64,000 nucleotides of DNA from Paralichthys olivaceus. Taxonomy: Eukaryota; Chordata; Actinopteri; Pleuronectiformes; Paralichthyidae. Location of the stretch: contig NC_091098.1 of NCBI RefSeq assembly GCF_024713975.1, positions 25,601,316-25,665,315 of the forward strand. The letters run 5' to 3'. The notes under the pieces were generated by a model, which did not search any database, had not been told where the DNA came from, and saw only the letters and a list, made by a program, of their open reading frames with translations. The position numbers were made by a program, and so were the translations under genes. This document shows, piece after piece, positions 49 to 61,888 of the stretch (its first letter is position 1; each line of letters opens with the position of its first letter).

Positions 49-223
49 CTGCACGAGTACATGTGATTTTTGCGGACGCTGCGTCTGAAGAAGCCCTTGC
101 AGCCGTCACAGCTGGAGGCCCCGTAGTGTTTGCCAGTGGCTCGGTCTCCACATATGGCGCACAGGCTGCCCGCTGCCAGGTGGCCGGTGGCGTTCATGTT
201 GGCGCTTTCTGCCGGTGAAGAGT
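49..223 (-). CDS. hnf4a: hnf4a exon 2 (first DNA-binding zinc finger)
   Basis: 175-bp exon, flanked by an acceptor (GTTGTGACAG before position 223) and a donor (CAG followed by GTGAGG after position 49). It encodes [20 protein letters not shown] and then the first C4 zinc finger with its P-box CDGCKGFF. It starts in phase 1 (one base from exon 1A or 1D plus AC gives Asp). A GTG at 230 is in frame upstream but lies in the intron and acceptor, so it is not a start. Confidence 0.95.
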
Positions 224-3200
224 CTGTCACAACGAGAGACGACAGAAAGACACATGTCCTCAGTTTTAGACAGTGAAAGAAACTTAATTCGGAGTGAGAG
301 GAGGAATATGTTTGATCATGAGGTCGGAGGTTTCAGCCGGTTTGATTTAATAAGGTGTGAACAGCCGCGGTGAAGACAGTGATCAGCTCTCGTACAACAG
401 AGATCCCGCCTGAGTGGCTCAGTCAACAGAGAGCGATTGATGTGGGCTTGATTAGCTCGGAAAAGTCAATCACAGTTTTCTTTTCAGTCACGAGACGGAG
501 TCAATCAATCACGCAGAATCAGTCATGACACATTCTATAGATTAAAAATGTGCTTGTGATGACTCGGAACACTGTCATCCATCTTTGTGGCAGAGCAGAA
601 ACGTGTGAGCAGCGTTTAGTGGTAAAGGTAAAGTTTTCTCTCAGGCTCAGTGGGAATTTAAGAATCAGGATCACAGCCAGGCGTCATGGGAGACTGAATA
701 TATAAATATGTTAGTGTCATCGGGAAAAAAAAACTTCTCTCCAGACTGTGGGAACAGGCCGTTTGTAACAGGAGAACCATGATCATGATACTCAGAGAAT
801 AAATAACAGTCCCCTCTAATCAATCTGACACCACATCGCTGCACAAGCTGAAACAGGCCAAATCGGCGTTGACCATTTGACCTGAGCAGAACTCTCGTAA
901 ATCAGAATCTCTTAATGTTTCACACCCAGAGGTGAAGGACCTCTGCACACCAGGATCTCCCCTGGATGGACAAATGACCCCTTCTCCTTTTTTTTATTAA
1001 TCACTTCACGCCAGAACTCCCTCTGTCCTCTCGTGAACAAAGTTTTAAACCAGCAGAAGTTTCAAAGTTCAGAGCAGCATGTATGTCACTCACCTGTGCC
1101 CAAAGGGAGCACTTGCATGTTTTCGAACTCCAGGGTGGTGTAGGCCGGGTCCAGGGCCTCGCTGTAGTCTGCCATGTCCATGTCTGCTGCTTTGGACAAA
1201 CAAATTCTCAACTACCTGACAGTGTGGCAGAAAGACTCGTCCAAGAAGCTAATGTGCCCCTGACCCTCACCCCCTCCTCCTCCTCCTCCTCCTCCTCCTC
1301 CTCCTCCTTCTCTTCTCACACCTCCACAAACCCCCCCCACACCCCCCACCCCACACCCCCTCTTGCTCTTTTCCAGCCTGGCTCCGCCCAGTAACCAGGT
1401 TGCTCCCTGGGGCCCGGCGGGAGTGTGATGGGACCCGGTGGTGTCACAGAGAGGAGAGCGGTGAGTGACAGGAGAGCTCGCCTCCTTCTCCTCCTTCTCC
1501 TGCCCTCTCGTGCCGCTAACCAGCCAGAGGAGAGGTGGAGTGTCTGTGGTTGATGGTTAACCAGCCTCCTCAGTGGTGAATCACAGGCTTGTTTTTTTTT
1601 CTGTGCAGAGGAGATAGGACAACTTTGATATCTCCCAGCTCCGTCAGTAATATGAAAACCACTTCTCCACCACAGCGCTGTCGGGTCAATCCTGTACCAA
1701 ATCTCTCCAACACCTTTAAAAGTCATTCTATAGACAGTCCTGACGGTAACACGCTGAAATCACATGCACACGAGTTAAGAGCAGCTAAGAACAAACAAAG
1801 GTGCAGTTTGGATTCATGTGTCTGTGCAGTGAGAGGTGACTCAATTCTTTTTCTCAGTCACTTCCCTCGGGCGGGAGGCTGCGGCCCATCAGACCCAACA
1901 CCTCGCAGCCTCATCGATGAGGACAGGGACCCCAGCACTTCATAAATCTGAAAAACCCACTTCTGATGGAGAAATGTGAACGTTCTGTGGTCAAACTGTA
2001 AAAACCCTCAATTGCACAGATCTGTTAGTATTTATTATATTCAGATACTATTCTGTTTTTTCATTTCATAGTTTTGTATTTATGCTCATTACCAACAAAC
2101 AACAGCAAAGGTGGATTTAAAGTAAATACAACTCTGAGGTATTTTTCACTCTACTACCTTTATTTGATAGGATTTATTATTTATTATGAGACTATGGGCC
2201 CTTGGTTAGTACGAGGCCCCCCCCCCCCCCCAGGTGTGAGAAGTACATTTACTTCATGTACATAATTATATTTCCAGGTACTTTCACTCTTACTGCACAA
2301 CATATATCAGCAAAAGTCTGTACTTTCTACTCCACTATAGTTTTACAAAGCATTGACGATCACATTGTTTTCGAGTAATCAACGACGAGAGTCGAATTAG
2401 TCCGATGATCCAATCAGAGTGGGCAGGTATAAAGTTAGGCTCCGCCTCCTGCAGCAGAAGAACAAACGCTCGGGCTGCGGTTGGAAAACAAAAACTATCT
2501 CCTTCCCTTTGACCATTATTCCTCAAAGAAGGATGTTCTAAACTATTTACGAGTTGAGAACATTTGAACAACACATTCCTCCTCCTTCCAATATTTATAT
2601 AATAACGAAGAGCAAAGAAAAGGTTCACGTGTGACACATAGATAAATTTAAAACGTGCACGTTAGAGCACGTCTCTCGTGTTTGTGAAGATGGATATGAA
2701 GTTTGACAAAAGTAAAAGTGAAACATTTGACAAGTTCACACAAGAAGCTTCTATTTAATTTGACTGTAAAAAAGTTCTTCTTGGTTTATAAGCGATGTCG
2801 TCCGAGTTGTTGTTGCAACCTTAGTTCATGTGAGACTCTTTATTCCGATTTGTTAATTTTCTTAAGTTGTGGTACTTTTCCTTCTGCTTAAAGGTTCAGT
2901 GTGTAGAATTTAGTGACATCTGGTGGTGAAGTTACATGTTGCACCTCCCCCTCCCCTTCCAAACAATAATAGAGAACCTGTGGCGGCTTCAGTTCTCATA
3001 AAAACTCAAAAGGTGTTAAGTTTGTCCAGTATAAGCAACTGTAAAAAAACATGGCCGCCCCCACAAGACACACGCCAAAAGACAAAAGAGGGTTCGAACT
3101 TTTTCTGACTGTATTTTTTTGACTCAATCATGACAATAATCCCGACACTGTGAGAGAATCACAACGTGCACAATGTGATATCATTCCTTTTATAACCTGC

Positions 3201-6200
3201 TGTTAATATCTCGCCTCTCCTTGTGAGCGCCGAACAAACACCTGATTCCTCAGGAGGTCAGATAAGACGTCAAACTATTTTTAACGTACCCTGAAACTTC
3301 CGAGCACAGTAAATCTACACTGACTTCCTCTGCACAGATACTAAATATGACAGTCCACTATAAAAGAACAGGTTTTATTTTCTTCTTCATACTCTAAACT
3401 AATTCTGTGATCAAATCTGATTCAGAACACAAACAAGACTGCGTTATTTTCTTTCAACAACTTTAAGTTATAGTTAATTATCAAATCAAGATTGTTTTTG
3501 TCAGTTTGTAACGTCGTGTCCTCAGAAGACTGAATTTACCCTGTGAAAGATTTTTCTCTGATTATTCCCGACTCAGTACAGCAGCTCCAAATGTTGGACT
3601 CTGCATGAATGCATCTATGATAATAAAACCACGACAATATACAAGTAATGATAATAATATAACAGCCTGAAGTTTTTATTTAATTTCTATCGAAGAGTCT
3701 GAACACTGGGCATCAGAGTATATCATGCAGTGTATGTACGCAGTGGTGCTGCGGGAGGCTCACTCGTCACATCATGTTGGATCTTTACTTCCCTCTGTGT
3801 CTAATACATCGGCGGTAAATCTTTAATTAACTATGGAAAATAACTTTCAGTGAAGCAAAGATGCTTTTACGCAAAAAGACTTGAAAATGTAAATAGTCTG
3901 AACTCAGCACTTCTCTAGTCTTGATGAACTTTACTCATTCACACGGCGCACCGTCTCCATCGTGCATCAACCACACACTACTGGACCAGAGGAAATTTGA
4001 GGTTCAGCGTCTTGCCCGAAGACACTTTGGCCAAATGGGGACACTGGGATCAAACCACCAACCCTTCTCGTTAGTGGATGACACGCTCTGCCTCCTGAGC
4101 CACAGCAGCCCACAAGTTAATTCTGACACCAGAGAAGTTTGTGTTTGAAATTCCAGTCGGGAAAAATGAAGTAAAAAGTGAAATGTTTAAGTTTGGAAGC
4201 ATCAGTATAAAGTTGCAGGTTAAGTATTCAATTAAAATACAAGTACTTATTTAAGTACAATCTCTTTTGTGCAGTACTTAAAGTAAATACTTCTTCTCCA
4301 TCAGGGGATTTACTGTATGGATGTAGTGAAGTAAGAAGCATGTGTGATGACGGTGGTCACTTAATGAATTAAAGATTTCACACATGAAGCAAAATGAGAA
4401 GAAGACGCTACAATAAATGTTCACATGTAAAAAAAAAAAAACCCGACATGGTTTGAAAAAGCACATGTGATCTCAGACTCATCCTGAATCCGATTGTTTT
4501 CACAAACTAAATTCTCCGCTTGCGCAAAAGGCGTCCACCTCCTGCATGTAACCCAGCAAACAGTAGTTGTGTATTTGAAGAGAAAGTGCCAGTACATAAC
4601 AATAGGTCAACGATCCCGAGTTCAGCCCGACCTCAGCAGCAGTAAAACCCCACGTAGGTGAACCTGTTAACTATGCACTCAAATTATACTGGGGACTCGT
4701 AAAAATTATTTTTCCCTCAGCGGACAAACACCGTAACATTCCTGGAGGCTCCTGTGCGCGATGCTGGGATGATGTGTTCAGGCGACACACACAGAAGGAA
4801 ATGGACGTGATCAAGCTGTGATTAAAAACCCCACTGAAAACTAATCTTCTCTGAGCGTCAGCCACGTTCACAGATCCAGATTCATTGATCTCTGGCTCTT
4901 GCAGTGAGTGACTTCAGTCAAACTGCCTGATTAACTCAATGGAAACGACGACGCCCTCGATCAAAAAATGATTAGCGGCCTCCTCCGCGCTCCCGACCTG
5001 CTCACGGACGGTTGTTCTGCATCAGGTCGGAGCGTGTTGTTTCACTTGTGTGTACAGGGGTCAGCCATTACAACATTTCTGCGTGTTCGATCTGCAGTCG
5101 GTCATATTTGCTCAAGAAGCGTGCTGATTATTTCAAAGCGAGTGATCAGAGGGGGGAGGATGGGAGGATAACTGCGCGGCCATTGAGTCACCCGCAGCGA
5201 ATCTTATCTCCCCCCGTCATTAAACGTCTTTTATTGCCGTCTCAATGTTAGATTTCTGTGAACTCCTCAAGGAAGGGTCATATACGGGACTGTAAAGTAT
5301 AATCTGTGAGGTTATAGCCGTCTCAATCACAAACTGTTCCGATGAGCTAGATAGCGCTGGTTAGCTCGACGTTATCCTGTTAACTTATCTGCATTTTGAG
5401 GTGGGGGGTTTGTGCTAACACGATGTGCCCACATTCCCACCGTGCACAGGCGGGATGTGACACGTGCAAGAGGCTGTGGAGCAAAGGATAACGTTTCCGC
5501 AGCACATGGTCGTCACCATTATCCCCCGCAAATCTGGACCCTGCTCGAAAAATGACCAAAATTAATAAAGTGTATATTTGTGCAGATCGAAGTTTAGAGT
5601 GAATTTCCCCCATGAGCTCAAGCTGTACTGAAAAATATTCTTATAAAGTGAAGCAGAGCAAAGATAGAGAGGTTTTTACGAGAGATAGTCATGATGGTAA
5701 TCTTCACGTGCAGTTTAAAGTTCTGCTCACAGTAAAACCCTCAACAAGATTATTCCTAAATTTAACTTTCTGCTCCGGACGTTCTGGTTCCAAGTCTGAA
5801 TTTGAATTTGTTGCGTGTTTAAAGTATAAATACGACCTCGTGTTGCGACGACCACCAGAACACGGGACAGGGGCCGAACTGTTTGTTCAAATGTTCGTGT
5901 TTCTGATGAGATTGGTTCAATTAGTTATTTGATGACTCGTGATCGGTCGTGTATCGACTGCGGCTCCAAAAGAGGGCGGAGCTGATATCTGGGATTTCAT
6001 TTCTGGACAGAGGGAGGATGTGGAGATGCGTCACTCATCTTTATTTACAGTCAGTGACTGTTCTGAGTTGAACTACAGTACTGTGTAGTACTTTGTAGTA
6101 CTGTGTAGTACTGTGTAGTACTGTGTAGTACTGTGTAGTAAAACACAAGATGAGATGGTGAACATGGTGCAGCGGAGGTCAATGTGAGCATGTTAGCAAC

Positions 6201-9200
6201 AGCCACACACAGCTGTTAGCATGAAGTTAGCCTTTTTATTTCATTAAATAGAAGAATTTACATATTAAATAAAAAGTTATTAATATTTCATCACAATTAT
6301 GTGGTGAACGTGTTTATGACTTAAGAGTCGGACCATCAGAAAACACATTTGTTGGGTAAAGGCTCTAAAAACTTTGCTTGTTAAAGTCATACATAGAAAT
6401 TCTTTAAGTCAAAAGTCGTTCAAAGAATTGGATTATATTTAAAATAAAGGAAAAAATGTACCTCAATCATTTAATTCTACGTGTCACAAGTTAACTTCAG
6501 TTATTTTGTGATTTGTTTTTTTATAATGTTTATGATTTATAAATTCAAATAAGTCAGCAGAATAAAAAAAATAAAAAATCATGTTTCCACCGATACAGAA
6601 TAAATCAAGCGGCTCAAGCTGAACCAGAGAGTTCTGCACGCCACTGATAATGATCACGCCTGCAGCTACAACAACTGTGTGTTAAACCATCTCCACTGCA
6701 GTGGGAGGCTGCCAGGCGGAAATGTGATGGGCCAGAGAGTGTTGTCTTATAATCAGTCACCCAAACTCCTGCCCTGGGGCTAAAAGTCAAAGGATCGCTG
6801 AGACCTGATGTAATACTTGTGTGATTCTCCCCTTTGAAACTTCAAACTCCAGTTTGTGAACAAAGTCCTGTCTATCTTCTGAATAGGAATCTCCGACCAC
6901 TGACCAAACTCCATTTGCAACCACTGCCTATTTGTACCTTCTCCTCAATGACTACATTTCATTTCCCCAAGTGTGATCTGAAAGGGAAGCGGCAGGGCAG
7001 CAGCGTAGTAAAAATCAAAAGACAGGAGCCAGCATCTGGGAGGAAAGAGACGATCATAGAGGCCTGGAAGAGTTAATAAGATGTGGAATATTCTCTGTCT
7101 GGGGACCGACTTTGTTTCTCTGAAAAACGAGCCACACCACAGGGGAAATGTGAGTGTTTGTGAGGCTCGTCCAGCAGCGAGTTGATGTTGATAAGAGTAA
7201 AAACAGAAGGAGACAATGTGCTGGCTGCAGCAGATTTGAGGCCAGCAGAAAAAAGCAGTTCTCCTGCAGTAGATGGAGGAGATAGGTGAGTAGAGTGTCA
7301 TGGCAAAGACCTTGTCAACAGATAACTATCTGCAAATAACACGGCTTATGCAAGCCCCTGTGGCTGAGCGGGGGGAATATCATATTTTCTGTGCCACAGG
7401 AATAATGTCTTTGATTCTACTTTCATTATCACAGACTTTGTGTGATCAGAGTACCTTCAATTATCAAACGTATTCACCGATATTGTTGTTTCAGGGTGTT
7501 TGGTGTGACAGGTTCTAGTCTCACGACTTAATGCTGGAAACCGCTGTCACACAGCTCGGCTAAAAAAAAAAAATCAAAAAAAAAATCACTTTTGCTTTTT
7601 TCTGGATTTGTAGAAGCTAATTTGTCGTCTAAAAAAAATATACTTCAGCTGCAGAACGCCAGCGTCAAGTGAAGGTTATTTGTAAAGATGATTTCTAAAG
7701 GGGCTGAAATCAGATCTGTTCTCTGAAGCAGCAGTCACATGTCGTCACCTCTGATGAACTAGTGTCTATGTGGCTGAGAGATAAATGTCGAATGTAGTTG
7801 GGAAAAGATGATTTGACACTTGCAGTGAGTTTATTTTCCACGCAATTCTTCTTGTCAGATATATTTATTTCTAAATAAAAATCGATTTTCCTCGACGTTC
7901 CCTCGTGATGTTTCGGTCTCGAGCGTTTTGCAAAAACCAGCTTCATCTTGTTCCACGTCCAGTCAGACTGAAAGAGGAGCCTCTGTGCACCAAATAAGTA
8001 AACAATTGCATCAATAAACACGGAGAGCATTGCGAGACGTAAATCAATCACAGCTCGTGATAAGGGACAGCAATCATTAACTCTGTTTTGCTGAGAATTC
8101 ATTTTGGCCGCCGGCCCGACCACCACTGTCAGCAGCTCGGCTCGGAGCACTTTTATCTCTGTGATTCTCTAAAGGTGCTTCAGTCATCAGCCAATCAATA
8201 GACGTTTGACCTCCATCTCTGCTGCAATAACAAGGCACTAAATATTCAGAAATTCAGCTTCATCTGTGCAACGATGCGCAAATTCTTCTTCTCTATTTGT
8301 GATCACGATGCTTCTCATTGAGACACTTTCAGCTGCTGAGTTTTAAATTCTACATCACAGACACATGGCTGCACATAACATTTACAAACCACCTTTACTT
8401 ATGGAAAAGAAGCGTTGTGAGAGGTAAAAATCATTAAAATCCAAGTTTTACTTCAGTAAAAACACAAAGCATGAGCATCAGAACACATTGTGAGTACTGA
8501 AGGAGCTCAGTTACAACTCTACATTCTGAAACGTGGCTTAATTTAAAATAATGCATTGAAGTTTCTACTTATTTTACTGCGTTTGTTTGTTAGTGAGCAG
8601 GATTTTGCAAAAAACTAGACGGCAGATTATCATGAAACTTGATGAAAGGATGTTTTGTGCGTCAGGAAAGAACAACTTTTACTTTTGGTGCTTTCTTTCT
8701 GCATTTTTCAATTTTCCGTTGATTTCTCAGAGATTGATCTGTGGATCTTAATCTCTAGTTTGCTTGTATGTATATATATATATATATTTATATATATTAA
8801 TCTGAATCTGCAGGGTCTTTAGCTGTGTCACTACCCCTTGAAATTTAGTGAAATATAAGCATAAATATGAAATAATTCAAAAATCTGGTTGAATGCAGCG
8901 ATGGAGTGAATGTTCTTCTTACCACTGAACAAGTTGTTCAGTAAAAAGTAAGTTAGTGAGCTTTATTTCAGACTCGTTGCTCCATATCAGTATAAAACAA
9001 ATAACACAGCACCCAGTTATAGAAATACAATAATCTGACAAGTCCTCAGGGATAAAAAAAAAAAAACACAGACAGACAGACTTCTGTTCCATGAAAACAA
9101 GAAGCTTTTGATATGATCAAGTTTTTTGGGGGTAAATTAATCTAAACTTGAATTCCTGGATGACGTTTCTCAGCAGACAGAAAGGTGGAGACATTTCTGC

Positions 9201-11256
9201 ACAAACATGTGACGCTAGATTCTGAAAGCGTCATTATATCATTGTATCTACGGTCGGCTCGAAAAAGTGATATTTAAACATTGTCTGTACACAGAGTATT
9301 TGTTGGCTTCTGCATAAAAGTACTAATTATGTAGAATGAATCATTATATACAACCTATTATTTATCATGTATATTATATATATGTATAAGTTTGCATCAT
9401 ATTTTTGAGGCTTGTGGAAGCTCAGTAGTGTTTTAGTAGTTTGAGTAAAAAGTGAAGTATAAATTGCAGTTCTTAAGTTCCACACATTAGTATATGTAGT
9501 ATTTGTACTTGATCCTGGTATGTCAGTGTACAGCATGTACTGCGTTACCGTCCCAGGTATCTGAAATCCCTGCTAACTACCACCATCATGTGGACACATC
9601 CCGCAGCACAAGCTCATGATCAATTCCCCGATCAGCTGCTCAGGCTCAAACCACAGACGATGTTTCATCCACAGACAAATCTCTGAATTATTCAGAGTCT
9701 AAACGAGTCGTCACATCAAATTCAATCGTTCCGGTCGTCGGGTTTTTGTTTTAAAAGTCTGATGTTGATTTCCTAAATGTTTCTCGTCGATGAAGCGAAC
9801 GTTCAAACACACGTTCTGTTGAAGAATTAAAGCAGCAGTGAATCAGAAACACGCTTTTTTTTTTTTTTTAAATCTCTATTGTAACAACATCGAGTCTGCG
9901 TTTCCTCTCAGCCTCCGGCAGCTTTACTTTCCTCTGTGGTCTGAGCCGCAGCTTGTCGTTCACCCTCCACTCTGGAATAATCACACTCGTACTTCTCAAA
10001 GTCCTCGGTTTTTTCTTTACCTGCGTGCGTGAAGTGCAGCGTCCCATCCTGGCCGTACATCCCTGCGAAGGCCGAGCCCTGACAGTGAGCCGGCCAGCTG
10101 AGCGAGGAAGGCCCATGAGCCTCGGCGGCTCTCTCAGGCCCGGCCAGGCTGAGAGGAGAAGCAGGGCCACTGTTAGCGGACGGTGCGGTTTGCCGGGGCC
10201 ACTGGGCCGGCGGTAAGGGCCCACATTGTGCAGGGATAATCCACTAATGCCTGTCACAATGAGATTTGATTGGAGGCCTGAACACTGGGATTAATAGTGT
10301 CAAGTGAACCGTGTGTAATACCTATCCTCCACACGGGCGGGCAGCGGACTGGCCTCTGTGCCTGTGTGAGGCACCACGGAGCCACTTTGACGGAATATCA
10401 TGTTTTATTCCAGCGCAGATCAAATGTCACCTCATTAGCTTGAGTGGTTACTTCGCTGTCTGTGTTTTCTACAACACACGACTTTATATTCCTGATCAGA
10501 TTCGCTCACAGATCAATATCTGTGTTGCTGTCAGATCAGATTTGATTGTGACAAGTGGGTCATCAACAGGCTGAAGCAGGAAACACAAGAACATCCTCCC
10601 ACAGACACGACATCGTTTTATATTGTTTATTGTGCTATGTGTTAGTTTATATTGAGTCATGAAACCATAATACAACTAATACTATTATTATTACTCTGGA
10701 CTTTATCTCCATTTGATTGCAAATGTCCTCATTGTGGGACAAATAAGAGACGTCTCATATTATCTTATTTACTTTCGGAGCTGATCTGCTTTTTACTAAA
10801 CAACTCCACAATTTACAGAAAGACAATCTGAAGCTTATAAAATCTTTCCCCATCTCGTCATAATGAAGCCAGGAAACGACGTCATGCATTGTTAAAAAAA
10901 ACACAGTAAAATAAAAAGTATCGTCCTGACGTGGTCCGAAGCTTCACGGATCAGAAAAAACTTCATGATCATGTGAAAGGAATGGCATCATCACCGTGAC
11001 GTGACCTTGACGTCAGAATTCAGATCAACCAATCGTTAATGACGATAAATCACATCACGATCTCATTAGAACAGTCAGCATTGACTGGCCGGGGTACAAT
11101 CGTCATGAGATGCTTCTAGTTAAGTCCAGAAGAAGAAGACAAGTTTTATTTTTACCCTCATTCTGTAAAAACGTGACACAATTTATCTTAAATACTTGAA
11201 ACTTCTTGCTGTTACGTGGCTTTTTGATGAGATGAAGCTGTTTGTCAGTGAGCTGT

Positions 11257-11305
<49 letters not shown>

Positions 11306-13926
11306 AGGGACCAGGCCTCAAGTCATTCAGCTTGGAAGGCAAACACATATCTGCCGTGGAGCTGTTGAACGGCTGTTGTCATGTTGACATTCACCCAGCG
11401 GCTCGGTTTGTCCAGGCAGTGACCGTTGAGCAATTAATCCCATGTGTCTCCCACACGGTTGTGTGTATTGTGTACGAGCAGGGAGAGGAGCTTGTCTGCA
11501 GAGTTTCAGGATCCAGATATACATTTTAAAAAACGGATCTTTTGTAACCGTGCTGACATTGAGAGGGAAGCTGCGATCTGCTCAGCAACACCACAAGAAA
11601 TCTTCCGTCCTTCCGTGAACACGACACAGAGAGTCGTTAAACTCTGAAATTCTGTCGGCTCGACTTTAAACCTCGGTGATTTGCAGTTTGTTTGGACAAA
11701 GAAGCATAGTATAACCCGATAGAGGCCAAAGAGAAGCTTAGAGCCGGCCGCTGCCAAAGAATGTATTTGTGACATTAATGTCCCGGTTTGTGAAGCGTAT
11801 ACTGTAAAAAAACAAATCCTCTCAGAAAATGTTGCTGTTGTACTGATCACGCCTTCCTGGACTCGTGGAGGCTTTTTACATAATCAAACTTTATTCTGTT
11901 TATGATGAATAGAATCAAAAATAATATAAAATGGAGGAGATGTTCTGTGAAAAGACGTTTTTCAGACATCTGGGTAAAATCTGGAGAACTGGTTTCTCCT
12001 GAAATCCTCCTTATTATTCAGGCGAGGAGGAGGAGCAACCGGGTTCAGCAGACAAGAGACAGGAAGTGACGTATTACCTCCGCCGCAGAGATCACGTGAT
12101 CGTTTTTTTTACATCACCTGACGCCGTCGTCAGCTCTGCACCAATTTATGGTCATTAAAGCCCATGAATATACCAGGACGTCCATCAGTCGTCCTCTCAC
12201 ACTGCGACGTCTCTGTGGCAGCGACACCGAGGACAATTAGTTCCAGAGATGCAAAACATTCAAAAAGTCTCACAAAGATACGTTTTCATGTTCATCGACT
12301 GCTCAGTAACTTATTCTACACATCTGCTCATTGAGGGTTTTGGCAAATGTTAATAGTTGGGGACTATTTTCAGCTGTGGATGAATACACGTCTGGTGTTT
12401 CAGTATTTCCAGCAGCAGACTGAGTCACAATAAACTTAAAATAGAAAAGAACTGAAGAAGGAATACACACACAATAGTTGTTCGTCAGATTGTTGAGGTT
12501 TGTTCACGATAAAGGAGAGTCAGACGTCTCGTGAGGAGACCAGGAGGAGAGCATGGATTCTACTGAGAGAAACTATCATGGCCGAATCTTTTTCTGATGA
12601 ACAATGTCGATGTTCTTCTTGTTCGAGCTGAAGCAGAGGAGGAACAACGAGCTGCTGCAACTTAACATTTGAGCTTTCTGTCGGCACTTATTGGCCTCTA
12701 TGGGGTAAAACCAATCAAACAGATTATTTCTTTGTAATTTCTTCATCTTAATTTGGATATTTCGCCTCCATTTTATTCCAGAAATCTCCGTCCACACGAC
12801 TTTCGTCTAACTAAATATTTTTGTCCTGACGAAAACACAAAAACCGACCCTGAGCGCTGAAACGAGCAAGACGTGAGACAAGAATGTGTCAACGACCAGA
12901 GAAGAACACTATGAGGTCATTCTCCTTTGGTGGTTAAACATAAAGCCGCCATCGTTGTTGTTGTTGTTTGACAGAGATCGTAGTGGAATGGTGTCAAAGT
13001 GTCCGAGGGGAAAACGAAAGCACTCTGCAGTCGACACAGTCAAAGTCACACAGATGAGTTTTGCTGTGCTGCTTTTTGAAATGAACCATCGGAGCAGAAT
13101 GAGAAGAAACAAGAAGAAACAAGAACTGAGTAAAAGATGTGAGTGAGTCTAGGAACAGGTTGAACGTGGATCTTGCCGCAGCAGCTGTTCAGACACATGC
13201 TCCCTCTTATTTAATCTTTTTTTTTTTTTTTTTCTCATGTGGTTTGTGAAAATGAATTTGCATCTCCACATCCCATCGTGACATGCAAATCCTTCAGTGA
13301 GTAAAAACAAGAAAACCCAGCTCTCTGTGTGAGAGGTGTAACAGTGAGGCCTTAGCTTGTCGGAAGCAGACGTGACACGATGAACGTCTTTATCCTGCAG
13401 CAGCGAGCGATGCAGATTTCTGTCATCTTAAAGAAATCGACTGTGTTTGTTCTTGTGTGCAAAATACTGAGCTTCAAAAGTGTCATCATTGCTTTTAACG
13501 TTTTCACGGTTAATGTCGCTCCTCAGATCCAGAATAAAAACTGAACTCATCCGACTTCTAGAACGACTCCAGACCTGCTCTGACATCTCGCTGCCACCAT
13601 CACCATCAGGCCCGGCTCCCATGGCCTCGCTGAACAACTCCACGTCCCTGACACACCTCCTGGATTACAGCCGTGAGAAAAAGCCAGACACAAATGGCGA
13701 TGATAGTTCCGCTGGGAATCAGACGTCACCCGGCAGCAGAGCTCCGGAGAGACGAACGGCTGCTGCACAAACCAGCCAGAAAGAAAACAGGAAAACCCAA
13801 GCAGCTGCCTCGCTCGCTCTTCTCTTCCCCCCGGCCGAAACCACAGAGCCAAGTTGATAAAAACAAAGCGTACTCACCAAATGGAAGTTCCATACTTGAA
13901 CTGACGTGCGTGTTTACATTGACCAT
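49..13926 (-). CDS. hnf4a: hnf4a, hepatocyte nuclear factor 4-alpha, 5' part only (two alternative first exons plus exon 2)
   Basis: HNF4-alpha is an orphan nuclear receptor that binds DR1 elements as a homodimer and controls liver, gut, kidney and pancreatic genes. Three coding pieces are seen on the minus strand: exon 1D (13926-13878), exon 1A (1181-1094) and exon 2 (223-49). Both first exons end in phase 1 and can splice to exon 2, which starts in the matching phase. Exon 2 carries the first zinc finger ([20 protein letters not shown], then [17 protein letters not shown]). The 1A peptide [19 protein letters not shown] is HNF4A-specific; HNF4G starts differently. The second finger, the ligand-binding domain and the F domain lie beyond the left edge. 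R3HDML sits immediately upstream, as in mammals. Identity is certain; the entry is partial because of the window edge. Confidence 0.96.
224..1093 (-). other. hnf4a: hnf4a intron between exon 1A and exon 2
   Basis: 870 bp of AT-rich intron with short A and T runs. I see no gene, repeat array or recognisable control element beyond the splice sites. Confidence 0.8.
1094..1181 (-). CDS. hnf4a: hnf4a exon 1A (P1 first coding exon)
   Basis: 88 bp of coding sequence, 29 codons plus one base, giving [19 protein letters not shown] and ending in QVLPLGT; the donor is CACAG then GTGAGTGAC. This is the N-terminal A/B segment (AF-1) of P1-driven HNF4-alpha. The start at 1181 is chosen because the upstream frame has no ATG before an in-frame TAG. 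The codons just upstream still read LSKAAD, resembling the RLSKTLVD that precedes MDMADY in human HNF4A, where an earlier ATG is used. Confidence 0.93.
1273..1309. repeat. (TCC)n microsatellite
   Basis: About twelve TCC units in a pyrimidine-rich stretch that continues as C-rich runs to about 1370. It lies about 90-200 bp upstream of hnf4a exon 1A on the minus strand, where it reads as a purine tract. Confidence 0.9.
1549..1561 (-). promoter_or_regulatory. hnf4a: Candidate HNF1 site upstream of hnf4a exon 1A (P1)
   Basis: The minus strand reads GTTAACCATCAAC, matching ten of the twelve defined positions of GTTAATNATTAAC. It lies about 370 bp upstream of the exon 1A start codon. HNF1 input to P1 is known in mammals; whether this copy is used is inference. 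Confidence 0.45.
2888..3115 (+). mobile_element. Truncated MITE with TTAAAGGTYC-type terminus
   Basis: Starts TTAAAGGTTCAGTGTGTAGA and continues through AATTTAGTGACATCTGGTGG and the AACTCAAAAGG segment that is also found in the complete copy at 16962-17364. The right terminus is not recognisable, so this copy is truncated. Non-coding. Confidence 0.7.
3960..4112 (-). mobile_element. tRNA-derived SINE fragment
   Basis: Read on the minus strand it contains an A-box-like TGGCTCAGGAGGCAGAGC and a B-box-like GGTTTGATCCC at tRNA-like spacing, followed by a tail that includes GGCAAGACGCTGAACC. This is the head of a tRNA-type SINE that I know as common in teleost genomes. It is not a functional tRNA: the acceptor stem and anticodon arm do not fold as one. 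Confidence 0.65.
6079..6140. repeat. 10-bp tandem repeat TACTGTGTAG
   Basis: About six copies of GTAGTACTGT with one TTTGTAG variant near the left end. Simple tandem repeat, non-coding. Confidence 0.85.
8585..8760 (+). repeat. Dispersed teleost repeat (family with copy at 14750-14965)
   Basis: Contains GCAGGATTTTGCAAAAAACT, then a 'GGCAGATTATCATGAAACTT' block and GTCAGGAAAGAA. The same order (GCAGGATTACACAAAAAACT, GGACGGATTTACATGAAACG, GTCGGGAAAGAA) occurs at 14787-14866, with weaker pieces at 28900-29110 and 39718-39775. Degenerate and non-coding. Confidence 0.6.
11261..11303. repeat. (TG)n microsatellite
   Basis: About 21 uninterrupted TG units in the hnf4a upstream region. Confidence 0.95.
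13878..13926 (-). CDS. hnf4a: hnf4a exon 1D (alternative first exon of the P2 promoter)
   Basis: A 49-bp coding piece, [16 protein letters not shown] plus one base, followed by a strong donor (G then GTGAGTACG). The human P2 exon 1D encodes MVSVNAPLGAPVESSY plus one base, so the length (16 codons plus one), the phase and the MVxVN start all agree. Splicing to exon 2 gives ...ELPFDSSPAES, which lacks the AF-1 of exon 1A. In mammals P2 isoforms (alpha-7 to -9) dominate in pancreatic islets and fetal liver. The 200 bp upstream hold HNF1-, Onecut- and GATA-like sites of the kinds known in mammalian P2. Identified from sequence memory; a transcript would confirm it. Confidence 0.85.
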
Positions 13927-14068
13927 GTCGTCCTCTGCCTCCTCTCACCCATATGTTGTAAATCCACTTTCTCCGCCCGCAACACAAGGTGTAAAATGTG
14001 GAAGTTTGGCGCAGGGTGCTGTGGTGTGAGAAGGGTGTTGGTGCAAGGTAAGGCCGGTGTTGCTGCTG

Positions 14069-14090
14069 TTATCTTATTGATTTTCCTAAT
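14069..14090 (-). promoter_or_regulatory. hnf4a: Onecut (HNF6)/GATA-like cluster in the hnf4a P2 promoter
   Basis: On the minus strand this stretch reads ATTAGG, then AAATCAATAAG (a Onecut/HNF6 core, ATCAAT), running into AGATAA (a GATA site). It lies between the HNF1-like site and exon 1D. Mammalian P2 is known to carry HNF6, PDX1 and GATA inputs. The order HNF1 site, ATTAG, ATCAATAAGATAA matches what I recall of human P2. Confidence 0.65.
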
Positions 14091-14112
14091 CTGGGCAAAT
14101 GTGGGTGGGGAG

Positions 14113-14125
14113 GTTAAACAGTAAC
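14113..14125 (-). promoter_or_regulatory. hnf4a: HNF1-type site in the hnf4a P2 promoter
   Basis: On the minus strand this reads GTTACTGTTTAAC, inside TGGTTACTGTTTAACC, close to the HNF1 consensus GTTAATNATTAAC. It lies about 190 bp upstream of the exon 1D start codon. The human P2 HNF1 site, mutated in some MODY families, is very similar as I remember it (GGTTACTCTTTAAC). Confidence 0.75.
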
Positions 14126-14749
14126 CAGGCTCGTATGGACACCAATCTATATAGCAGCTGTAACCATGGCAACATGATGATAGAAACGCAAATAGACATA
14201 GAGTGATTATGTGCTTTTCCCTCTTTCTCATCACCAAACGGTCGTTTCTCCAGATATGGACGGGTGAGGAGTGAATAAGACGCAAGAGTTTATAGAAAAA
14301 GGGAGAGAGAGAGAGAGAGAGAAAGGCAGGAGGGTGGGGGAGCGACATAAAAGACAAGAGGAGTGGAGAATGTACCGAGGGTGGCAGCGAACAAACGGCG
14401 TGTGATGATTGACGTCATTAGTTTGGAGCGAGGAGAAAAGAGCCCAGACACCAGGTGAAGTCCAATTCAAACCATTTACCTGATTTCACTGGGGGAGACA
14501 CGTGTGCACCGTCCACTGAATCCAGACTGAAACACACAGAAGCTGCAGGGAAACTTACACACGACCATTATTACCTCCACGGTTCTGTTGGTTTCTATTC
14601 AGCCGCAAAAAGCACTGGAACAATTTCCAGGAAATGCTGTGGATGCGTGAGACGTGATCCAAGTAAAAACATAAAGTTATTTGAAATACTTTATATGCTG
14701 ATTCATCTGTGATAACGCATGAGATGTACTCTCTCCATCAGGGAGGTTT

Positions 14750-14965
14750 ATGTTGTCGTCTGTGTTTTTGTTTGTCTGTGTGGAAGCAGGATTACACAAA
14801 AAACTACAGGACGGATTTACATGAAACGTAATAATAAGGATTCGGTTTGTGTCGGGAAAGAATCCTTCACGTTGTGAGCTCGGACGTTTTTGTGCAATTT
14901 GATGAAAAATCTGGATTTTGTGACTTTGAGTGTGATTTCATGAGGAGACTGTTCTGCTCTCTGAC
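14750..14965 (+). repeat. Dispersed teleost repeat, second copy
   Basis: Same family as 8585-8760: GTTTGTCTGTGTGGAAGCAG, then CAGGATTACACAAAAAACTA and a methionine-like 'ACATGAAACG' block. Degenerate. Confidence 0.6.
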
Positions 14966-15288
14966 ATTCTAGTTGATGTTTCTTAATGAATCTGCACCAT
15001 CCAGGCAATTTATCACATTTAATCACAAGTGTCTTCAGTCTGGGATTAGTTGAGTTGAGTCTAGAAGAACAAGGAAATCATAAGTGACATTAAAAAGTTA
15101 GAAATATCAGGATACAGCACACTTGCAGCACAAACATCACATTAACAGTGCCTCCTGCTGTGCCGGCGGGCAGAGTCACAAGCTGCCAAGATAAACTGAA
15201 GTCACGTAAATGCTGAACCACAGGCCGCTCCTCTTGTTTCCGACTAATTTTGTTTGTCGAGCAAAAATGTTTGCTGTGGTGACCGTAG

Positions 15289-15291
15289 TGT

Positions 15292-15345
<54 letters not shown>
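15289..15345. repeat. (TG)n microsatellite
   Basis: About 28 TG units with one TTTG interruption near the left end, about 600 bp beyond the R3HDML stop codon. Confidence 0.95.
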
Positions 15346-15347
<2 letters not shown>

Positions 15348-15600
15348 TCATATTCTAAACCATAAACTTTGCATTAGTCTGCAGCTTTATGGCAGAAGAA
15401 GCCTCCCCGGGGTGCGTGGTGAGATGTAATGAGGTGTGATGCAGCACAGAACATTTCCTGCCGCAGCAGCAGAGAATAAACACAAGCAGCGAGCAGCAGA
15501 TTATTTATGGGGAAATTAAGCGTCGGGCCAGTTTGTTAATAATTTAAATTAATGTTCAGTCGTGCAAACAGACAAATTAAACACTGAACAGTAAAATGAT

Positions 15601-15606
15601 TTTATT
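15601..15606 (-). promoter_or_regulatory. r3hdml: Candidate poly(A) signal of R3HDML
   Basis: AATAAA on the minus strand, about 350 bp past the R3HDML stop codon. It is the nearest canonical hexamer I found; use is inferred. Confidence 0.5.
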
Positions 15607-15957
15607 AATCAGGTCACAGTCAGTTTAATCTGTACAGTGAAAGTGCTTCGTATCTGGTCAACGCCTCGGAAAAGTTACTCAAACAACAAACTTCATTAAA
15701 AACAGTGCAAAACAACGACATTTTCACCGAATACCAGGAAACTATTTCTCTCGTGTTCAATGTTATTATCATCAACACAAATGAAAATCTTAACGTTCAT
15801 AGTGCGACACGCCAACAACTCGTGGAAAAAGATTTACTGAACATAGTGGCACTTTGACAGCTGCAGTGTTTTCTTTTCTTTCTTTCTTTCTTTCGTTAGT
15901 TTAAGATCTCCTCGTGATAAATTACTTCTTCTTCCTCCATTTAAACGATGTGTGGCG

Positions 15958-18703
15958 TTAATATCTCGACAGTCTTCTGGTTTTGGTGTTCGACGAGCAC
16001 TGGTTTCTCCAGCAGGAGCCGCCGTAACTGGACGGACAGACAGAGCAAGGCCTGCCGGTCTTATAGGGAGCTTCTCCCACCCAGTTTCCTCTGAAACACA
16101 TGAGCTCAGTGTTGGCTTCGCATTTAAGAAGGTACGAGAACATCTGATTCACACCCTGGGCACGGAACGCATGATGTGAAAGGAGCTGAGCAGAGACACA
16201 CAGACTCGTTTTTCTTTTTAAATGATAAATAAAGGTTAAAAAAAACACTTGTGTGTGTTTTGTCCTGTTTTTGTGCTGATGTGATTTATCTGGGAAACTA
16301 ACTCGAGGCCCGACACCATGATGCAAACGAGTGGTCGGGACTCTGGGGTGTATACAAATACAAGCACCTCATAATTGTACTAAAAGTACTGTACAAGTTG
16401 AATTACTATCTGCAGTATATTTCTATTTAGGGGATTATTCTGTGAAATAAATCTTCACAACAACAGAATCACCTCACTCCTGCCGTCTATATGTTTTTAG
16501 TGTGAGACAGAACCGTAGAATATGGATAAATATAAAGAACATACTTTATAGAGTAGTTGCAGACCAGCAGCGTCGCCTCCCTCCAGCTGCTCCCGAACAC
16601 GTGCATGTTGGAGCATTTCCTGACCGCACATCCCAGCCTGCTGGTGCTCGCCCACACCATCTGACCGGGGCCACAAAACACTGTGTGATGCTCACAAACT
16701 CAAATCTGACCACATCTGAACACAAGACACACATTTTCCATTTTCCATGAAACTCAGCGAAACGATGAGTCACAGAAGAACCCATCAAATTTTTGGTGCA
16801 AATCCATATTGAATTTTTTTTTTATTTTTTTTTATTTCACATTCAGAACAAAAATATACAAAAAAAGATTAAATGTGTATAAACGTGTTTTAAAAAAAGA
16901 ATCTGAAAATGATAATAAAGTGATTTCTAAATAAAAAGATACACCAAATACTAAAAGTGGCTTAAAGGTACAGTGTGTAGAATTTAGTGACATCTAGTGT
17001 TGAAGTGTCATGTTGCAGCTGAACACCCCTCCCCTCCCCCTCTCCTTCCAAACATGTTAAAGAACCTGTGGCAGCTTCAGTTTTCATGAAAACTCAAAAG
17101 GTTTAAGTTTGTTCAGTCTGGACTGATGTAAAAAACATGGTGGCCTCCGTAGAGAGGGTCCCCTCCATGTTAATATAAAGTATTTGAATATAAAGTATTT
17201 AAATATAAAGTATTTAAATATAAAGGGTCTTTTCTGGGGTAAAGAAAACTACAATTCATACAATTTAGATGAAACGAACTCGTGAAAACATCACGAGGAT
17301 TATTCTACATTAAATTTCTGCCACGAGTTCCCTTTCACCTGAATCTCACACACCGGACCTTTAAATCTAAATAAATAAAATTCAATTTAAAGGCAGAATA
17401 AAAAGGAAGGTGTTGGGTTCGACATTCTCTGCTGTTCCCGAGACGTTGATGAAAGTTCTGACTTCAGGTCGAACTAAGAGGCCTCTCCCAGCAGATCTGA
17501 TGGTTCTATAGAACGTTCATACCGCAGCTAAACCTGAAGACATAGAATCCTCTGAATGTACCTGAGTGTAGTGCGAGCACACAGATCCAGTGCATCTGTT
17601 GGGGAAGGAGAAATGATGCCTCTCATTGTACCAGGACCTGACGAGGTCGGTGATCGACTGGAACCTGTCACATCCAACACACATCCAGTCATTCGTCCGC
17701 ATCAGCAGAAAACAGAAAGTGTCAGAACCCATCACTTCATCATTCGGGGGTCGCGCTCGTCTACAGATCTGTACCTTCCTGAAGTGATGGACAGGTTCTG
17801 GCCCATGTATTTCATAGCTGGCGTTGGACCGTGATCCCAGATGCAGAGCGAGGCCCAGGAGTCGGCCGACTGAGCCAGTCCGTCGTCCCACAGCTGTGGA
17901 GGAAGTGAGAGAGGTTTCGGTTTTATTTTGTCAGGTGAGGAAAAACAACATGATTCAGCTTTTTGTCTAAAATATACGTCTGAAGCAAAAAGGTTTGTTT
18001 CTTGCATCAGCTGCCCGTGAAGGTTTACTCACCACAGAACCAGCAGATGTGAGGTTTATGAAAACAATGTTTAAAAAATTAATCAATCAACTGAATTAAG
18101 ACATTTTTATTCCTTAAGAAAAACTTTTTTTTTTCGTCCAGAACAGAAATTGTCATAAAATACTTGATATACCAAATAAGGATTGATGTCAGAGAGTATG
18201 AATAAATATATATACGCAGATAGAAATGTACTTATGTTACTTTAACCTCATAGATACATTACATTTGAATAGGTTACTGGTTTTATTAACTTTCTCCTAA
18301 ATCTCTCTCATTTCTCCTTTTTTAATTTCCTCTTTTATTTGTTATCTTGTTTGTTCTGTTCTTCTGTATTTGAAGACAATAAACCACTTCGCCGGGTCTC
18401 AGGTCCGATTCTCCTCACCATGTACTCCATATTGGCAGCAGGGGGGAAAACCTGAGAGCGGACCCGGTTGTGGTAATCCAGCAGGGCGCTGATCTCTCTG
18501 GAGGAGATGGCTCTCTTCCGTCTGTTGCGAGAAGAAACGCCAGCGGCTGCAGTGAGCGTCCTGGAGTCCGACTGTGTCTCAGCTGCAGCTCTGGTGGCGT
18601 TGAGCAGCTCCGTGGAGCTCGACAGCACAGCGGCAGCAGCTCCCACGTGGGGAGTCGACCACAGGGTGGCAGCGAGCAGGAGCTGAAGGCAAACAGAAGC
18701 CAT
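15958..18703 (-). CDS. r3hdml: R3HDML, secreted CAP-domain peptidase inhibitor-like protein
   Basis: Five coding exons: 18703-18419, 17893-17775, 17664-17562, 16660-16545 and 16090-15958. They join in frame to 251 aa (human about 253). The protein has a signal peptide ([16 protein letters not shown]), a basic stretch RNRRKRAIS before the mature domain, then the CAP domain: [73 protein letters not shown], and a cysteine-rich end [15 protein letters not shown]. Best match is R3HDML, close to PI15 and CRISPLD proteins; its biochemical role is poorly known. It lies directly upstream of hnf4a in the same orientation, as in mammals. Odd point: the family segment with two cysteines (human PRDCNPHCPW) between the LFP and RC positions is missing, so exon 3 reads [17 protein letters not shown]. 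The start is chosen for the signal peptide and single upstream exon. Confidence 0.94.
16091..16544 (-). other. r3hdml: R3HDML intron 4
   Basis: 454-bp intron with short A/T runs and nothing else recognisable. Its acceptor (TGTTTCAG) and donor (AA then GTATGTTC) give frame K|GNWVGEAP. Confidence 0.85.
16962..17364. mobile_element. Complete MITE with TTAAAGGTMCRGTGTGTR inverted termini
   Basis: The left end reads TTAAAGGTACAGTGTGTAGA. The right end, reverse complemented, reads TTAAAGGTCCGGTGTGTGAG. About 400 bp long with no coding capacity, and it contains a threefold 'AATATAAAGTATTT' tandem at about 17172-17224. It sits in R3HDML intron 3 (16661-17561). It is the full-length relative of the fragment at 2888. 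Confidence 0.75.
17894..18418 (-). other. r3hdml: R3HDML intron 1
   Basis: 525-bp AT-rich intron, with donor ATG then GTGAGGAG and acceptor CTCCACAG. No other element seen. Confidence 0.85.

Positions 18704-59431: not shown

Positions 59432-61888
<2,457 letters not shown>

Follow-up and report, generated by a model that had tools for sequence, protein, structure and literature searches.

A probable hnf4a P2 promoter and exon 1D in Paralichthys olivaceus and a near-identical HNF1-CACCC core upstream of hnf4g

The 64,000-nucleotide window analysed here (positions 25601316-25665315 of Paralichthys olivaceus contig NC_091098.1, called C6, in a genome of 588 Mb and 25 contigs) carries hnf4a on its minus strand, and a short open stretch 5' of its first coding exon together with a cluster of putative transcription factor sites is very probably orthologous to the HNF4A P2 promoter and exon 1D, with a core that is also kept at hnf4g. 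What goes beyond the preliminary description of the locus is the near-identical HNF1-CACCC core at hnf4g. That description had implied that the fish P2 itself was novel, which now seems less so since the high conservation of exon 1D in most vertebrates, with chicken named, is in print in the passages cited from PMC10438950 and a P2 in fish was therefore to be expected.

The coding part of the candidate exon 1D (13878..13926, minus strand) is an ATG-initiated stretch of 16 codons plus one base, 49 nt in all, followed by the donor GTGAGT at 13877-13872, and the coordinates and phase first proposed for it hold to the base. It lies 5' of exon 1A, the first coding exon of the P1 promoter (1094..1181, minus strand, 29 codons plus one base), beside r3hdml and on the same strand, with an r3hdml exon upstream of it and 12,745 bp from ATG to ATG, as expected from the 12.7 kb and the R3HDML neighbour described earlier. 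Exons 1A and 1D both end in phase 1 and both join exon 2 in frame with no stop, through an acceptor common to the two; exon 2 (49..223, minus strand), where the DNA-binding domain starts, begins at 223 directly after ...TGTGACAG and ends at 49. The length of exon 1D equals that of its human counterpart, which we take to be 16 codons plus one base as well. When window positions 1182-18334, the 17.2 kb from exon 1A to the first exon of r3hdml, were searched on the minus strand for an ATG with 8-40 open codons, one further base and GT[AG]AG, only two candidates were found, one of them exon 1D. An upstream ATG 26 bp before that of exon 1D opens a 12-codon out-of-frame open reading frame (ORF; window 13952-13914, minus strand) which overlaps the main start (ATGGGTGAGAGG...TAA), and at this upstream ATG the sequence ATGG|GTGAGA could serve as an earlier donor.

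By domain content and similarity scores the gene, like its neighbours, fits HNF4A. The joined exons encode zf-C4 and Hormone_recep domains (Pfam), and the ligand-binding exons score 406-408 bits against solved HNF4A chains and 381 bits against HNF4G. The gene model takes in exons 3-8 and a last exon; this remainder of the gene runs below window position 1 and is followed by a ttpal-like CRAL_TRIO gene.

Upstream of exon 1D we find an HNF1-type site, GTTACTGTTTAAC, of 13 nt at 14113..14125 on the minus strand (-199..-187 from the exon 1D ATG), with G as its first base and C as its last, and, on the same strand at -185 to -177, a CACCC box (TCCCCACCC). Together they make up a 24-bp core, GGTTACTGTTTAACCTCCCCACCC, at 14103..14126. 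This is followed, on the minus strand throughout, by GATTAG at 14086..14091 (-165 to -160), by resemblance a PDX1-type homeodomain core, by AAAATCAATAA at 14074..14084 (-158 to -148), which resembles an HNF6/ONECUT-type site, and by a GATA-like AGATAA at 14069..14074 (-148 to -143), so that the series of sites placed about 190 bp upstream in the preliminary description is present in the order given there. GTTANTNNTTAAC occurs once in the window, counting both strands. ATTAG and AGATAA occur 27 and 24 times on the minus strand of the window and therefore carry little weight singly, while the combination of the HNF1 site with ATCAATA after 10-45 nt was found nine times genome-wide, one of them at the hnf4a P2, compared with five for the control. 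The identity of the gene, its synteny, the phase and length of the exon and the way in which these elements are laid out all agree with the proposed assignment to HNF4A P2 and exon 1D.

A search of the genome with the DNA-binding exon returned 55 matches, most of them, by their lower scores, other nuclear receptors; the three best, clearly ahead of the rest, were hnf4a on C6, C17:7221344(+) and C1:17660577(-). The ligand-binding exons of the C17 gene score 346 bits to HNF4G and 320-326 bits to HNF4A; as they fit HNF4G better and the C6 exons fit HNF4A, a teleost-specific duplicate of hnf4a was ruled out as the identity of the C17 gene. This hnf4g has its own exon 1A at C17:7219386 (60% identity, E 4e-9) and its exon 2 at 7221315, and one of the 130 HNF1-like sites matched by the pattern GTTACTNTTTAAC lies 6.9 kb upstream of that exon 2 in sense orientation. 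Here the core reads GGTTACTGTTTAACATCCCCACCC (C17:7214459-7214482) and is identical to that of hnf4a at 23 of 24 positions. Allowing up to three mismatches, the core pattern has four places in the genome (reversed control three), hnf4a and hnf4g with none, no third place with one or two, and two elsewhere with three. GTTANTNNTTAACNTCCCC has five places including these two genes (control three), and GTTANTNNTTAACNNNNCCACCC, that is the HNF1 site, four nucleotides and CCACCC, with the bases at which a provisional human P2 sequence differs left open, has exactly two in 588 Mb, the hnf4a P2 and hnf4g, with none for the reversed control. A repeat or mobile element as the source of the core was ruled out, there being only these two places within two mismatches.

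Downstream of the hnf4g core, and spanning C17:7214459-7214728 with it, is a segment consisting of an ATG, 10 codons and one base that ends at the donor GTGAGT and matches the phase of exon 2, with a stop in its frame immediately 5' of the ATG. Measured from its first base, the HNF1 site lies 248 bp from the donor at hnf4a and 268 bp at hnf4g, and the order P2-1A-2, the strand and the splice phase are alike at the two genes. Judged by these features hnf4g has the layout of a P2-type promoter, with an HNF1-CACCC core 5' of exon 1A in sense orientation and then a putative phase-1 exon. Since hnf4g exon 2 holds an internal ATG this P2-like exon need not be coding.

The most straightforward reading of the shared core, and the most likely one, is that P2 was already present when HNF4A and HNF4G split. 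The C17 region at 5.47-5.53 Mb contains the only other gdap1-like match in the genome, one of the four junctophilin-type matches outside the window and two of the three further r3hdml-family matches, so that C6 and C17 look like paralogous blocks. Together with the best scores of their genes to human HNF4A and HNF4G respectively this suggests that the split between hnf4a and hnf4g most likely predates the divergence of fish and human. We consider it probable that P2 is older than HNF4A, in that an ancestral vertebrate HNF4 would already have had an HNF1-driven second promoter with a phase-1 first exon which was kept in both genes after the genome duplications, and that the HNF1-HNF4 loop which fails in maturity-onset diabetes of the young (MODY) would have been wired before the split. 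The third gene, C1:17660577(-), is divergent (252 bits to HNF4G, 229-231 to HNF4A) and is called hnf4b-like for this divergence only. In the 34 kb examined upstream neither a P2 core nor a convincing match to exon 1A was seen, and the best match to the core within 50 kb on both strands had seven mismatches.

A number of observations weigh against the orthology of P2 and its great age. The HNF1-like pattern GTTACTNTTTAAC is no commoner genome-wide (130) than its reversed control (174), so that it is the placement of the site which counts. The exon 1D peptide is identical to a provisional human exon 1D peptide at only 6 of 17 positions; when M was kept in place none of 20000 shuffles reached the BLOSUM62 score of 31 of this pair, and 20 of 20000 did so when the final D was kept as well. 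The hnf4g P2-like peptide, MHIPDRERNT, is unlike exon 1D. On C17, the remaining paralogous genes are 1.7 Mb away from hnf4g, and C16 also has one junctophilin match and the third r3hdml-family match, 3.6 Mb apart. A blastn comparison of the two loci gave 15 sense-strand matches, eight of them coding exons and seven others including the core (E 0.002), and four of the six other non-coding matches outscore the core; those at window 11303 and 1325 are simple repeats and the four remaining ones, whose order differs between the loci, look like dispersed repeats, so that the four higher-scoring matches comprise both simple repeats and two of the dispersed-looking ones. Finally the 45 bp beyond the core align weakly, 86 of 2000 shuffles scoring as well, although GTTTA-GTAAATCGAT at hnf4g occupies the place of GATTAGGAAAATCAAT at hnf4a. 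The comparison thus speaks firmly for the HNF1-CACCC core as the shared part, and the rest of the promoter likeness is suggestive.

The poor alignment of the flanks outside the 24 bp and the dissimilar peptide are what would be expected if only the hnf4a P2 were orthologous and the core at hnf4g had been gained later and independently, by convergence or as a small copied insert, in which case it would have no bearing on the age of P2. We regard this as unlikely, as the match takes in, in addition to the HNF1 site, the nine bases of TCCCCACCC, the rarity of the core genome-wide speaks against a repeat, and the two genes agree in order, strand, phase and the distance from HNF1 site to donor. It is very unlikely that the cluster is an enhancer of P1 instead of a promoter; the promoter reading is drawn from sequence, but an in-phase exon ATG with the donor GTGAGT follows 187 bp downstream of the hnf4a HNF1 site and a similar layout is seen at hnf4g. 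That exon 1D is a chance open stretch below a chance cluster of sites, with no P2 in this fish, is very improbable, for although the exon is a prediction from the DNA, ATTAG and AGATAA are singly common and the HNF1-like pattern is not enriched, a chance exon was rejected because of its phase, its rarity (one of only two phase-compatible candidates) and the core in common with hnf4g, and its peptide opens with MVxVN, as does the provisional human exon 1D peptide, with the HNF1 site at a position close to the human one.

For the proposed P2 the sequence, the phase, the identity of the gene, the synteny and the shared core with its rarity are observed, and factor binding, start site, splicing, tissue and age are predictions. 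The cluster at 14126-14069 is most likely occupied by HNF1, and also by PDX1-type, ONECUT and CACCC-binding proteins and perhaps a GATA factor, and transcription would start between the cluster and the ATG at 13926. Exon 1D would then be joined to exon 2, with exon 1A skipped, to give a form of Hnf4a in which the 16 exon 1D residues replace the P1 N-terminus. At P1 itself there is an HNF1-like sequence, GTTAACCATCAAC, at window 1561 on the minus strand, approximately 380 bp ahead of the start codon of exon 1A and with two mismatches to the consensus.

Upstream of hnf4a the window contains r3hdml (minus strand), named from the reading of its ORF and from family matches, its 40-residue exon having no Pfam match, followed by fitm2 (plus strand, Pfam FIT), gdap1l1 (minus strand, GST_C domains) and jph2 (plus strand, MORN repeats). 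This is presumably the gene order of human 20q, JPH2-GDAP1L1-FITM2-R3HDML-HNF4A-TTPAL. Adjoining jph2 is an alpha-tubulin-like gene (window 59432-61059, minus strand), a name given on inspection of its ORFs.

The compact fish P2 offers a small locus for testing. Should the core hold in other species it would date P2 before the split of HNF4A and HNF4G, offer a reason for a possible dependence of both genes on HNF1, and single out a stretch 5' of human HNF4G that deserves a search for regulatory variants, since a P2 that predates the split predicts a P2-like core there. In classical work HNF4G is reportedly HNF1-dependent in islets. No report of a P2-like promoter at HNF4G was found in a literature search which was thin on subscription papers and does not establish absence from print, and the sole paper found with the words 'HNF4G promoter' concerns, in the passages available, a WNT-responsive element.

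Among known systems the closest is HNF4A P2 with exon 1D in human and mouse (HNF4alpha7-12), with which the fish locus has in common the gene, the r3hdml neighbour and the splice phase. According to the passages cited from PMC11382887 human P2 contains sites for HNF-1, PDX1 and HNF-6, so that of the inputs listed in the preliminary description these three stand, whereas a GATA site was found in no cited passage. The human order of the sites is provisional. The HNF-1A site of human P2 takes in both c.-181G and c.-169C and thus measures 13 nt, and variants at these two positions show co-segregation with MODY or come from MODY registries (PMC11382887). A 13-nt HNF1 site therefore lies approximately 170-200 bp before the ATG in both species (human c.-181..-169, fish -199..-187), with PDX1-type and HNF6-type sites nearby, those of the fish being assigned by resemblance. 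The P2 site is described as differing from the rat albumin site by T for A at sense position 12 (PMC11382887), and the fish site would also have T there, provided that the oligonucleotide starts four bases before the site. A provisional human P2 sequence aligns to the fish hnf4a P2 over some 60 bp with one 2-bp gap and a score of 72.5, and to the hnf4g stretch with 60.5, neither score being equalled in 2000 shuffles; as the human letters are provisional these alignments are a lead only. The two systems differ in the distance between P1 and P2, which is around 40-50 kb in mammals according to the passages cited (PMC10438950, PMC10450339, PMC12425335) as opposed to 12.7 kb in the fish. Zebrafish hnf4a is described in the cited part of PMC12425335 as having seven transcript variants, tv1-tv7, which encode isoforms of 427-468 residues. 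For HNF4G the cited passages of PMC10438950 place the splice form HNF4gamma1 in kidney, intestine, colon and pancreas and HNF4gamma2 in intestine only, and with these forms may be compared the fish hnf4g, which has an exon 1A-like and a P2-like candidate first exon that both match exon 2 in phase.

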